From positions 1,302,001 through 1,366,000 of the forward strand of contig NC_011295.1 of NCBI RefSeq assembly GCF_000020945.1: a stretch of 64,000 nucleotides of DNA, read 5' to 3'. The stretch's first letter is position 1; each line of letters starts with the position of its first letter. Made by a program: the position numbers and the translations under genes. Source of the DNA: Coprothermobacter proteolyticus DSM 5265. GTDB lineage: Bacteria > Coprothermobacterota > Coprothermobacteria > Coprothermobacterales > Coprothermobacteraceae. Positions 8,849 to 53,385 of the stretch are shown one piece after another. The notes beneath the pieces were generated by a model that saw only the letters and a program-made list of their open reading frames with translations, did no database searches and was not told where the DNA came from.

Positions 8849-9511
8849 GTGAATTTCTCTAAAGAAAACCTGTTCGACAGATGGGCAAAAAAATACGATA
8901 GAGATGTATTTGAATCTGACCACAATAACGAATACCCTTTTGCCGGCTACAGCAAAGTACTTTCATTTATTTGGGACCGAGTGAATCCTAAGAACGATGC
9001 CAAGATTCTTGACTTGGGAGTAGGTACAGGTGTACTTTCTTCAATGCTTTATGAAGCCGGAAGCAGCATAACCGCATTAGATTGTTCTCCAAATATGTTA
9101 ACAGCTGCCAAAGAAAAGATGCCAGATGCAACCTTTATCCAGTGGGATTTCTCTAACGGGCTGCCCGAACGTTTACTGGAGCAAGCAGGCAATTATGATT
9201 ATGTAATAAGTACGTACGCGCTACACCACTTAAATGAAGAAAAACAGATTGAAATACTCCTAAGTTTGGCCACACTTCTTAAGCCGCAAGGAACAGTATT
9301 CATAGGCGACATATCCTTCGAAAAACGGGTTAATTTGGAAACCTGCAGGAAGCATTACCAAAGCCTATGGGATGATGAAGAATTCTATATCGTAGCAGAG
9401 GAAATTATCAATGTACTTTCTCATGTGTATGAATGCACGTATGATCAAATCTCTTACTGCGCAGGTGTATTAACGTTGAAACCTTTACTTTTACCTTTAA
9501 AGCCGTCATAG
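8849..9511 (+). CDS. Class I SAM-dependent methyltransferase
   Basis: 220 residues. Motif I (ILDLGVGTGVLSSML), the acidic end of strand 2 (ITALDCSPNMLTAAKEKM), and motif for strand 4 (YDYVISTYALHHL) are all present in order. The start is GTG with only a weak GTTAGG ribosome site, consistent with coupling to the gene before it. Substrate unknown; the overall pattern resembles YrrT-like small-molecule methyltransferases. Its end overlaps the convergent gene at 9506 by six bases. Confidence 0.82.
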   Translation: MNFSKENLFDRWAKKYDRDVFESDHNNEYPFAGYSKVLSFIWDRVNPKNDAKILDLGVGTGVLSSMLYEAGSSITALDCSPNMLTAAKEKMPDATFIQWDFSNGLPERLLEQAGNYDYVISTYALHHLNEEKQIEILLSLATLLKPQGTVFIGDISFEKRVNLETCRKHYQSLWDDEEFYIVAEEIINVLSHVYECTYDQISYCAGVLTLKPLLLPLKPS

Positions 9512-9832
9512 ATCACGCAAGTGTTTCTTTAACTTCCTGGTTATGTCGCTAACAATGGCAGCTTTAGTTTTCTCATACCAGCGCTGCATACCTTCATCGT
9601 AAGATATCTTCATAGTCGGTTTGGCACGCATTTCTTCTAACATTTTTGCCTCCAACTTGTATCTCCATTGATCAAGTTCCAGTGCGGAAAGTGCTTTTAC
9701 CAAGCCTTCTGGAGTATTTACCCAAAGCCACCACCGGTCTGGACTGCCCTCTTCCATTGGTAAATCGAAAAACTCTCTATAGTTTTCCGGCATGCCTAAA
9801 AGTGTTTTCACTGCCTCGTCATACTGCAGCAT
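9506..9832 (-). CDS. Hypothetical cytoplasmic protein
   Basis: 108 residues, Trp- and charge-rich, no membrane segment and no recognised domain. The ATG is preceded by AGGAGGTGTGAAGG, so translation is likely real. It is the last gene of the minus-strand unit with the NuoH-like and antiporter-like genes (24-base gap) but nothing in it resembles a hydrogenase or complex I subunit. Confidence 0.6.
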   Translation of the reverse strand: MLQYDEAVKTLLGMPENYREFFDLPMEEGSPDRWWLWVNTPEGLVKALSALELDQWRYKLEAKMLEEMRAKPTMKISYDEGMQRWYEKTKAAIVSDITRKLKKHLRDL

Positions 9833-9856: not shown

Positions 9857-10774
9857 TCATAAAGATGTCAAGACCAGACTAATAAACGACAGAACAACCA
9901 CCAAAGTATTTAAGTACCCCATGAGTTTTGCTGAAGACACCATAGAGACAAGCATGCCAATCAAAGCCGAAGGGACAAAAACCATTAGTACTTTCAGAGT
10001 AGTAACTAAAACAGAGCCGGGGCCCAAGAACAGTAGAGAATAGAGAATCAATCTCACAGCAACGTTCAAAGAAGACGTTAAGAGCTGCATCCCGGCGTAT
10101 TTACTAGCACCCTTATGGAAACTTTCCAAACACTGTTGTCTGAACGGCTGAGTAATGTTTGCAAAATAAACCCCCAAAGAAACAATACCCAGCAACCCTG
10201 CTAAAGGCAGTTTACCAATTAGCCAATCTTTGAAACTAAAAGCACTGGGGCTACTACCACTTAGTATGTCTCCCCACTGCACATTCACGATGTCAGTAAG
10301 TTTAAGCGACCCCACAGTAGCTGCCACAACGAAAGCCACAAGGACCAAAGACAAATCAACAGCCCAAACGTTCCATCCATGAGCGTGCTGGCATTTATCA
10401 GAAGTTTCTACTAACGACTTTGCCGCCAGATTCATAAGCAAAGAGCTGGCAAATAACCCAAAGCTCACAACTAAAAGATCGCCGTGAACTGCCATGGTAG
10501 GCACAGAAGTGAACGGAAGCAGCCATACCAAGAATACAGGCACTGCCAAGGCAAGAATAAACAGGAGGTTTGGTAGCCAACCCAAATCGGTAGAAGGCTC
10601 CTTGAAAAAAGCTACCACATCCGTAAAAGGCTTCCAGAAAGGCACATGCTGGTCGGTTGGCTTACTTAGGTTCCTCAACCACTGAAAAACGCCAACAAGA
10701 AAAAGGCCAACAAACATGTAAAACAGCGGTAGCAGTAAAAGGACAAAGGCACCCAAAATATTCTCTATGGTCAT
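9857..10774 (-). CDS. NuoH/HyfC-like membrane subunit of a complex-I-type ion pump
   Basis: 305 residues with about eight membrane helices. The pattern fits the NADHdh (subunit 1/NuoH, HyfC, EchB) family: GLFLVGVFQW with LRNLSKPTDQHVPFWKPF (amphipathic segment after helix 1), a Lys/Glu-bearing loop (KSLVETSDKCQ), and helices to the end. In complex I and group 4 hydrogenases this subunit connects the redox arm to the antiporter-like subunits. Its ATG overlaps the stop of the antiporter-like gene (ATGA), indicating coupling. No NuoB, C, D or I partner is encoded nearby, so the redox partner is elsewhere or missing. Confidence 0.7.
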   Translation of the reverse strand: MTIENILGAFVLLLLPLFYMFVGLFLVGVFQWLRNLSKPTDQHVPFWKPFTDVVAFFKEPSTDLGWLPNLLFILALAVPVFLVWLLPFTSVPTMAVHGDLLVVSFGLFASSLLMNLAAKSLVETSDKCQHAHGWNVWAVDLSLVLVAFVVAATVGSLKLTDIVNVQWGDILSGSSPSAFSFKDWLIGKLPLAGLLGIVSLGVYFANITQPFRQQCLESFHKGASKYAGMQLLTSSLNVAVRLILYSLLFLGPGSVLVTTLKVLMVFVPSALIGMLVSMVSSAKLMGYLNTLVVVLSFISLVLTSL

Positions 10775-12540
10775 AGGTTATCACCTTCTTTTGGAAACTC
10801 ATCAGAGTCATGATCTGCAGCAGGCAAATCAGGAGAACTTTCTTCGCTATTGGAATTGGTAGATCCGCCTGCTTCCTCGCTAGAGCCAAAACTCCATACC
10901 AAGGCTGCCATGAGCACTGCCGCTATCAGAATGGCGAAAACGTACAAACTATTCCAACTACCCGCAGCGGTTTGTGTGTTGAAATCAAACACAAAGAATT
11001 CCGACAAGGACTTGAGAGGTTTGCTTAGTAGTTTTTGTAAGCTGGTATTGAAAACACCTAAACCCAGAATTCCGACGCTGATCAAAATGCTTACCAACAT
11101 GCTCACAATGCCTCTTTCGCGAATGCCGCTGGGTTTCTTAACGAGAAGGAAGCTACCAAGATACTTTATCGTGCAAAGTAGTAAACACAAGGTAACTAGC
11201 AGGAGCAAACCAGGAAGCACATAAAGATCCATCTCGAAGAAGGCTGTGTAAATCATGTATAAAGCACCGAACCCAATTAAAGGTGGCAAACCAGTGGCAG
11301 ATAAACCACTGATCAAAGACAAAACACTGGTGTAAGGCATCCTACGCCATAGAGGTAATTGCTCCACTGACTCTTTAGTCTCTTCACCTTCACTAGACAA
11401 GCTATTTTCCGTAGACCAGCCAGCTGCCACATACAAACCAGTCTGGGACAAACTGTGAGCATAGGCCATCATAACAGTACCTATGAATGCAGCAGGCAAA
11501 TAATCCACTTCCATGGGCATGAAGGGCAATATGATCGCAACATAAGAGAGCTGTAGGCTGGAAATGTAGCTGAGTAAGGTTAGATAATCGTCAGATTTCA
11601 AAGCCTTATGGGTGAAGTATACCGCTCCAGCTATTACCACGCCGCCAATTACCAAACTTCCAACAGGCAAAGAAACCAAAGACCCAAAGTGCGAAAGCCA
11701 TTCTGCTCCGGTAAACAAAGACATGGATAACATACCGAAAAGCCCTGCCTTGGTTGTAGCTCCCGAGAGGTAAGCAGCAGCAACAGGATCCACACTTTTC
11801 AATGTGCGTTCCATTGAAAAGTGGAACGGGAACACGCCCATATTACTAAGGAACACCAAGAAAAGAAGCAGTAACCCAAGCACTGACGGCATATTGAAGG
11901 AAGTTAACTTTTCTGCAACAGCGCCATAACTGGAATCCCAACCGTATGCAGAAAGCAAAATGACTGCAACCAAGAACAAGGTTGACCAAAAAACATTACT
12001 AACCAAGCTCGCTTTCACAACATCTTTTTCATGTGTGGTTAATCGCACAATGAAAAATCCAGACCAAAGCATGATTTCCCACGCCAAAAACATGGAAAGA
12101 TAAGTCCTGGAGGTGAGTACTAAGAAGACACCTATGCTGCCAATTAAACTAAGTGCAACGAACTGCTCGATCCAATGTTTCTCCTTGATGTCGAACAAAG
12201 CCAGATAAACTAAGATCAGCGTAACGAGCACTGTGGGCCATAAAACTCTAGCAATACCAGTCCAGATAAAAGATATGTTAGCTTTGTACACAGAAAACTG
12301 AATGTGTTCCGCTGCAATACCCAATTCGTAGAAACAGCCATAGCCCGTAGCAAATAGGCCGATTAGCAAACTTAAAACCCGACTCCAACTCGTACGTATA
12401 ACAGATAACAGCCCAGAGGCCACAGCGCACAGAACAAAAACCAATACAAGTACAGTCATCAGACTCCAACTCGTACGAATAACAGATAACAGCCCAGAGG
12501 CCACAGCGCACAGAACAAAAACCAATACAAGTGCAGTCAT
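10771..12540 (-). CDS. Antiporter-like membrane subunit (NuoL/N, HyfB, MrpA/D family) with duplicated N-terminus
   Basis: 589 residues with about 14-15 membrane helices. The proton_antipo_M core is recognisable: the helix-5 Glu (LAWEIMLWSGFF) and the helix-7/8 Lys segment (AAYLSGATTKAGLFGML) are kept. The later HxxFK-type segment reads AYAHSLSQTGLYVAAG, so the usual Lys there appears to be lost. The C-terminal ~45 residues are a soluble Ser/Asp/Glu-rich tail. Residues 1-27 and 28-54 are almost identical because of an 81-bp tandem duplication. AGGAGGTGA precedes ATG 12540, while the second copy's ATG (12459) has no ribosome site, so the duplicated helix is probably made. Confidence 0.78.
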   Translation of the reverse strand: MTALVLVFVLCAVASGLLSVIRTSWSLMTVLVLVFVLCAVASGLLSVIRTSWSRVLSLLIGLFATGYGCFYELGIAAEHIQFSVYKANISFIWTGIARVLWPTVLVTLILVYLALFDIKEKHWIEQFVALSLIGSIGVFLVLTSRTYLSMFLAWEIMLWSGFFIVRLTTHEKDVVKASLVSNVFWSTLFLVAVILLSAYGWDSSYGAVAEKLTSFNMPSVLGLLLLFLVFLSNMGVFPFHFSMERTLKSVDPVAAAYLSGATTKAGLFGMLSMSLFTGAEWLSHFGSLVSLPVGSLVIGGVVIAGAVYFTHKALKSDDYLTLLSYISSLQLSYVAIILPFMPMEVDYLPAAFIGTVMMAYAHSLSQTGLYVAAGWSTENSLSSEGEETKESVEQLPLWRRMPYTSVLSLISGLSATGLPPLIGFGALYMIYTAFFEMDLYVLPGLLLLVTLCLLLCTIKYLGSFLLVKKPSGIRERGIVSMLVSILISVGILGLGVFNTSLQKLLSKPLKSLSEFFVFDFNTQTAAGSWNSLYVFAILIAAVLMAALVWSFGSSEEAGGSTNSNSEESSPDLPAADHDSDEFPKEGDNL

Positions 12541-12542
12541 CA
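12381..12542. repeat. Tandem duplication, 2 x 81 bp
   Basis: 12381-12461 and 12462-12542 differ at only two positions (T/A near 12397/12478 and A/G near 12452/12533). The repeat is in frame and duplicates 27 codons at the start of the antiporter-like gene. Confidence 0.95.
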
Positions 12543-12773
12543 GCCTTCACCTCCTGCAAAAACTTGCTAGCGCACTACAGTTAAGAATTAATATCGCCCT
12601 ACACTCTTAGCTGTAAGAACTCATTTTGCCACAAGCATTTCCATTTTAAATTACATCTTCACGATCGTTGCTATTCCTGAAGAGGCTATTGAATAAAGCA
12701 AGCTTACACAATGACAAGTGTTAGACCATAGGAATTACCTCCATAGTAGAATGGACTTTGGGAGGTGTTTTAG

Positions 12774-13949
12774 TTGGATAAAAGCTTTTTCGACCAAGTG
12801 GTAGACCGTAAAGGTACCAACTCCAGCAAGTGGGATGGCCTTAAGAACGTTTATGGTACCGATGATGCGATTCCCATGTGGGTAGCGGACATGGACTTTA
12901 GAAGTCCTCCCGAAGTGGTGGAAGCAATTAAAGAGCGGGCTCAGCATGGCATATTTGGTTATACCACCGTAGACGAGCAGTACTACGCAGAGGTAGCCCG
13001 GTGGTGGCAAAGGCGGCACGGCTGGGACGTGAAGCATGATTGGATTGTTACTTCACCAGGTACCATCTCTGCTCTTAGCGTAGCTGTAAGAACGTTTACC
13101 TCGCCAGGAGATGGTATTATCATCCAGCCACCCGTTTACCCACCTTTTGAAAGAACCGTAAGGCTAGCAGGGAGGCAAGTGCTGTACAACCAGCTAATGC
13201 TAAACAACAGTGGTCGTTACACCATGAATTTGGAAGATTTGGATAAACAGTTAAGTCAAGGAGCAAAAATGTTCATTTTTTGCAGTCCACATAATCCCGT
13301 GGGACGTGTTTGGAACAAAGAAGAACTCAAAGAACTTGCAGCCGTACTCAGCAAATATGAAGATGTAGTGATTTTTGATGACGAACTCTGGGCAGATTTT
13401 GTTTTTCCTCCCAACGTTCATTATCCACTCTTAAATGTAGCGCCAGAGCTAGCGAAACGCACAATCACTGCAACATCAGTTAGCAAAACCTTCAATTTGG
13501 CAGGTTTAGAAAACACAAACTTGTTTATTCCGGATGAACAGTTAAGAAAAACATTTGAGGAAGCCATGTTCGCTTTAGCATTGAACAAAACAAATCTGTT
13601 TGCGATTGTGGCTACTAAGGCAGCCTACAGTTGCGGTGAGCCATGGCTTGATTTGCTTCTTGACTATCTGCAGGAAAACTTGCAGTTCATAAAAACATTT
13701 CTACAGGAAAAAATGCCCACGGTAAGTGTAATAGAGCCAGAGGGAACCTATCTAGCGTGGTTTGACATAAGGCAGCTCCATATGAGCTCTGCTGAAGTAA
13801 GCCAGAAGCTACTGCATGAAGGAAAAGTTGCCGTGGAAGAAGGAACCATGTTCGGTCCCGGTGGAGAAGGATTCCTAAGAGTGAACTATGCTATGCCTCG
13901 CACACTACTTAAGCAAGCTCTGGAAGGTATGTCAAAAGCCTTAGCATAG
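12774..13949 (+). CDS. patB: PLP-dependent C-S lyase/aminotransferase of the MalY/PatB family
   Basis: 391 residues, fold-type I. The start motif IPMWVADMDFRSPPEV, SPGTISALSVAV, QPPVYPPF, CSPHNPVGRVW, DDELWADF and the PLP lysine in SVSKTFNLAGL are all typical of MalY/PatB cystathionine beta-lyases. The family splits cystathionine or cysteine conjugates to thiol, pyruvate and ammonia. The TTG start has GGGAGGTGT ten bases upstream. It faces away from the antiporter operon and ends at a strong terminator shared with the sulfur-relay operon on the other strand, itself a suggestive pairing for sulfur metabolism. Confidence 0.88.
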   Translation: MDKSFFDQVVDRKGTNSSKWDGLKNVYGTDDAIPMWVADMDFRSPPEVVEAIKERAQHGIFGYTTVDEQYYAEVARWWQRRHGWDVKHDWIVTSPGTISALSVAVRTFTSPGDGIIIQPPVYPPFERTVRLAGRQVLYNQLMLNNSGRYTMNLEDLDKQLSQGAKMFIFCSPHNPVGRVWNKEELKELAAVLSKYEDVVIFDDELWADFVFPPNVHYPLLNVAPELAKRTITATSVSKTFNLAGLENTNLFIPDEQLRKTFEEAMFALALNKTNLFAIVATKAAYSCGEPWLDLLLDYLQENLQFIKTFLQEKMPTVSVIEPEGTYLAWFDIRQLHMSSAEVSQKLLHEGKVAVEEGTMFGPGGEGFLRVNYAMPRTLLKQALEGMSKALA

Positions 13950-53191: not shown

Positions 53192-53385
53192 TTACAAATG
53201 GGGGTGTTGTCCTCGGGGGTGTTGTCCTCGGGGGTGTTGTCGCCCGATGGGAGGCGTAAGATTATGAGAAACGTTAGGTTCTCAAGAGATGGATGGAAGG
53301 TTATGTTGGTTACAGTCATTATTCTTGCTCTTATCCTCACAGGTATGTTTACGCTAAGTTTTAAGCAACCCGCTGTGGCAAAAGC
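53192..53385. repeat. Duplicated leader and signal-peptide cassette, copy A
   Basis: This stretch is nearly identical to 55246-55423 (copy B), including the G-rich leader, ribosome site GGGAGGCG, ATG and the first ~35 codons. Copy B lacks one 15-bp unit. Confidence 0.9.
53200..53244. repeat. Three tandem 15-bp units in the leader
   Basis: GGGGGTGTTGTCCTC at 53200 and 53215, then GGGGGTGTTGTCGCC at 53230. The related leader at 55254 has only two imperfect units. Confidence 0.9.

Follow-up and report, generated by a model that had tools for sequence, protein, structure and literature searches.

An 81-bp in-frame tandem duplication of the first-helix region in an antiporter-like subunit gene of Coprothermobacter proteolyticus

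The gene for an MbsH'/MbhH/NuoM-like antiporter-like subunit opens with two nearly identical copies of its first-helix region, which raises the question of how the duplication arose and what a membrane protein makes of the additional helix. The sequence examined (the window; 64,000 nucleotides, in which coordinates are given unless stated otherwise) is taken from a genome of 1,424,912 bp in one contig, of which it covers bases 1302001-1366000. TRF detected a tandem repeat at 12381-12543 with a period of 81, 2.0 copies and 97% match, for which the binomial chance expectation is about 1e-38. The repeat lies in frame at the 5' end of one 589-amino-acid ORF (12540..10771, minus strand). Copy 1 (CTGATGACTGCA...GGAGT; 12463..12543, minus strand) encodes MTALVLVFVLCAVASGLLSVIRTSWSL and copy 2 (CTGATGACTGTA...GGAGT; 12382..12462, minus strand) encodes MTVLVLVFVLCAVASGLLSVIRTSWSR, each together with the junction codon; copy 2 corresponds to the canonical TM1, where the homologues begin and where the PRK08668 profile alignment starts, at residue 28. 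In the register 12543-12463 / 12462-12382 the units are unlike at 2 of 81 bases, in agreement with the preliminary description: codon 3 is GCA in copy 1 and GTA in copy 2 (Ala/Val), and codon 21 is ATT in copy 1 and ATA in copy 2 (synonymous, Ile). The ORF register 12540-12460 / 12459-12379, which fits the coordinates of that description, shows CTG (Leu27) versus CGG (Arg54) at the junction codon as well; this third difference reflects the duplication boundary rather than a mutation that came later. The flanks immediately outside the units have only one base in common (C). By eye, there is an imperfect likeness (9/13) between the 3' end of the unit and the sequence around the ribosome site; this likeness might have primed slippage. 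An alternative-frame ORF across the repeat (12278-12559, 93 aa) was considered and dropped, as nothing was found to support this frame.

A phase-variable role, as suggested earlier, gains no support from the repeat. The unit length is a multiple of three (81 = 27 x 3), so that a change in copy number never alters the reading frame, and in a TRF scan of nearly the whole 1.42-Mb genome this was the sole near-perfect long two-copy repeat, with no class of such repeats beyond it. Other repeats were seen. The largest tandem duplication found in the genome, about 717 bp with 87% match, lies at G000:C1 70021-71422 (L032 from 11521). In the window, a perfect 15-bp repeat of 2.8 copies (GGGGGTGTTGTCCTC; 53200-53241), which would encode MGVLSSGVLSSGVLSPDG, covers the more upstream of two candidate starts of a 258-aa ORF, at 53198; translation of that ORF may really begin at the in-frame ATG at 53264 (MRNVRF...), which has GGAGG in front of it.

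The age of the duplication was estimated by comparison with relatives, sought in five genomes of the family, with one genome per species. Of the relatives found, the Coprothermobacter MAG UBA10526 is the nearest (91% identity over the protein, 92% at the DNA level); it has a single first helix, a GTG start and the same ribosome site as here (AGGAGGTGAAGGCTG). A single first-helix copy is also present in G001, of the same genus (53% amino acid identity; TTG start), and in G004, of the same family (about 41%). In all three relatives, two of them of the same genus, the single copy aligns to copy 2, and none carries two long-established diverged copies, a situation that the preliminary description had raised. 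The duplication thus arose in this lineage after the split from UBA10526. Divergence between the copies is 2.5% (95% CI 0.3-8.9%) versus 7.9% over the gene for the species pair; the point estimate places the duplication later than that split, as it must be given the single copy in UBA10526. The middle base of codon 3 is C in both genus relatives, and the T in copy 2 is therefore derived. At codon 21 the polarity is less certain because UBA10526 has ATA and G001 has ATT. From these comparisons we take the duplication to be real, fairly recent and natural, and not new on a laboratory scale. The word 'fresh', used of it previously, holds in the sense that it is lineage-specific and younger than the UBA10526 split, but not in the sense of laboratory-recent; a laboratory-derived change is at odds with the gain of two substitutions, at least one of them clearly after the duplication.

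The earlier designation of the product as an ion-pump subunit stands as regards the antiporter-subunit family, but pumping itself is doubtful. The protein matches PF00361 (Proton_antipo_M) with 38.3 bits, above the gathering score of 21.5. Its best family match is the PRK08668 / MbsH' equivalog, at 112.5 bits and below the cut-off of 617 bits; the intact G004 homologue, with a score of 300, is also below that cut-off. Asn233 (11842..11844, minus strand) occupies the TMH7 position, which is Lys in 15/15 homologues outside the genus, and Leu427 (11260..11262, minus strand) occupies the TMH12 position, which is Lys or Glu in the same proportion. Within the genus, Lys of TMH7 is replaced by Asn, and Lys/Glu of TMH12 by Leu or Val, in all three members where the gene was found. 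Among the residues expected of a pumping subunit, Lys on TMH7 and Lys/Glu on TMH12 are both missing here; Glu155 of TMH5 and Lys264 of TMH8 are present, with Gln in place of Glu155 in G001. The protein stops after TMH15 with an acidic tail and lacks helix HL and TMH16. In Mrp and complex I the charged residues of TMH7 and TMH12 are described as essential and absolutely conserved (PMC7419157), and E219/K393 of MbsH and K217/K399 of MbsH' are charged residues at helix kinks (PMC7684303). MbsH carries E219 at the TMH7 place (PMC7684303), which is charged, whereas Asn233 here is uncharged. Loss of the two residues is nevertheless compatible with another transport role.

The neighbouring genes point to a larger operon in the past. 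Downstream lies a NuoH/MbsM-like partner of 305 aa (9857..10774, minus strand), which overlaps the upstream ORF by 4 bp and was assigned by tblastn to the G004 operon and a weak MbsM match; the GEKPFD..E region of the G004 protein is not conserved. It is followed by a gene for a 108-aa protein (9506..9832, minus strand) with 48% identity to the gene closing the intact G004 operon, marking the old operon boundary. Neither this 108-aa protein nor the NuoH-like partner had a match in Pfam or NCBIfam. On the other side is a divergent MalY-type aminotransferase gene (12774..13949, plus strand), a conserved syntenic neighbour. At the syntenic G004 locus, which also adjoins a divergent MalY-type gene, an MBS/MBH-type cluster is present: the operon (L027 4284-13659) encodes Mrp-type, H, NuoH-like, NuoB-, NuoC- and NuoD-like and ferredoxin-like subunits and the 108-aa protein. 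The large redox subunit of G004 (L027 5132-6244) has RICVPEPDVNEAAYC where hydrogenases carry an RxCGxC-like motif, and by eye it looks like an Mbs/Mbx-type subunit rather than a hydrogen-evolving enzyme. Beside malY in the present genome, just the H-like, NuoH/M-like and 108-aa genes remain of a G004-type operon. The genus relatives likewise retain the H/M pair alone (L002 6004-8606 and L026 8403-10957, equivalent to window 9857-12540, minus strand), and the cluster of MBS/MBH-type J, K, L and N redox and Mrp-type subunits is absent at the locus in the window, L002 and L026. Away from this locus, the genome carries a separate Mrp/Mbh-type cluster at about 832-840 kb. Relative to UBA10526, dN/dS was 0.17 for the H-like and 0.21 for the M-like gene, close to the 0.13 of malY. 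Judged from its sequence, the pair has the look of a relict that no longer pumps yet retains some function. Purifying selection shows that it remains functional in some way, and for this reason the new helix may not be neutral.

In an AlphaFold (AF2) model built with 18 sequences in the alignment, copy 2 (residues 27-48; pLDDT about 91-94) forms the first helix of the antiporter-subunit fold. Copy 1 (residues 2-22) is an extra helix of low confidence (pLDDT about 59-65), in part because no homologue has copy 1. The model fold matches antiporter subunits of MBS as well as those of complex I, formate hydrogenlyase, MBH and Mrp (Foldseek, E about 1e-14 for the last four). By homology to NuoL/M/N, whose topology is established, the native protein would have its N-terminus outside and keep inside the Arg-bearing loop that follows TM1. 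One added helix would therefore leave copy 1 either flipped, with its N-terminus in and its Arg outside, or uninserted or cleaved. We favour, as the probable explanation, a natural, lineage-specific event that left a tolerated N-terminal appendage on a non-pumping relict subunit. The tandem duplication would have copied the start codon together with the first transmembrane helix of the MbsH'/NuoM-like subunit. Copy 2 would occupy the native TM1 place, with its N-terminus out and the Arg-bearing TM1-TM2 loop inside, and copy 1 would be an extra hydrophobic N-terminal appendage, inserted in the opposite sense (16 versus 15 helices) or else trimmed or idle. The H-like subunit and its NuoH-like partner would be what survives of a full Mbs/Mrp-type operon at its ancestral locus. 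The extra helix may be tolerated because such a relict lacks the TMH7 and TMH12 charges needed for proton translocation.

A single genome of the species stands behind the repeat, which leaves some room for an artefact of assembly, sequencing or laboratory handling. Such an artefact is nonetheless highly improbable: the copies differ at two sites, one clearly derived with respect to both relatives; for error rates of 1e-5 to 1e-4, the chance of two errors in 162 finished bases is about 1e-6 to 1e-4; and the whole repeat, at 163 bp, would fit within one long read. A real duplication could still yield an ordinary single-helix protein if translation began at Met28, with copy 1 an untranslated or rarely translated leader. 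An ATG does open copy 2, with GGAG just 5' of it, and it is here that the alignments to the profile and to all relatives begin. Copy 1, however, is open and in frame, and its start codon is preceded by a strong Shine-Dalgarno sequence, AGGAGGTGA (12547..12555, minus strand), which is kept in UBA10526. The calculated duplex is -14.6 kcal/mol before copy 1, within the top 0.05% of random sites, versus -5.9 kcal/mol before copy 2, a value matched by 18% of random 25-mers and thus at background level. The claim that a good ribosome site precedes the first copy only is borne out by these values, and with strong pairing at the first ATG and background pairing at the second, the two-helix protein predicted in the preliminary description is the expected main product. 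Main initiation is accordingly expected at copy 1 on the basis of sequence, and a start at Met28 appears rather unlikely.

The additional helix might also have been selected, with an added transmembrane or signal-like segment providing a new topology or partner and selection retaining an unstable repeat. Selection for the helix is conceivable because tandem repeats of about 81 bp are prone to deletion and tend to disappear: survival long enough to acquire two changes would be unexpected under neutrality. Purifying selection on the gene is consistent with this, as is, by eye, an AVA-SG stretch in the helix that resembles a signal peptidase site. On the other hand, the duplication occurs in one genome only, copy 1 is modelled poorly, and one nonsynonymous plus one synonymous change give no selection signal; we consider a selected helix unlikely. 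A broader version, in which an MbsH'-like and an MbsM-like subunit, devoid of redox enzyme and proton-path lysines, form a two-subunit module with a new non-pumping role and the selected duplicated helix changes the N-terminal topology, seems improbable.

The duplication represents a natural single-step case of a membrane protein gaining one helix and meeting the consequent topology problem, and the unduplicated near relative offers a comparison for helix gain. A literature search for helix-duplicating in-frame repeats found none with the terms used. The relict H/M pair matters more than the duplication. Complex I-type modules are thought to evolve through module gain and loss, and here a whole operon in one member of the family can be set against two membrane subunits in the sister genus, lacking the proton-path lysines and under purifying selection.

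MbsH', a subunit of the membrane-bound sulfane reductase in Pyrococcus furiosus (PDB 6u8y chain X; NCBIfam PRK08668, 'NADH dehydrogenase subunit M'), is among the closest known counterparts and shares the TMH1-15 plan and a similar setting, the neighbour here being NuoH/MbsM-like. Unlike MbsH', the present protein has no TMH7 Lys, TMH12 Lys, helix HL or TMH16, and it has an acidic tail and the extra N-terminal helix, at a locus devoid of redox subunits. The G004 H subunit (L027 8196-10058) is similar in sequence (41% identity), in the pattern of its first helix and in its position between malY and the 108-aa gene; it differs in its length of 620 aa, its one first helix, its retained pump residues and its setting within a full operon. 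Complex I NuoM/NuoN and the Mrp antiporter subunits have the same fold (Foldseek TM-score about 0.7) and PF00361 in common with the duplicated protein, but sequence identity to them is 14-19%, and the key TMH7 and TMH12 residues of these subunits are absent from it.
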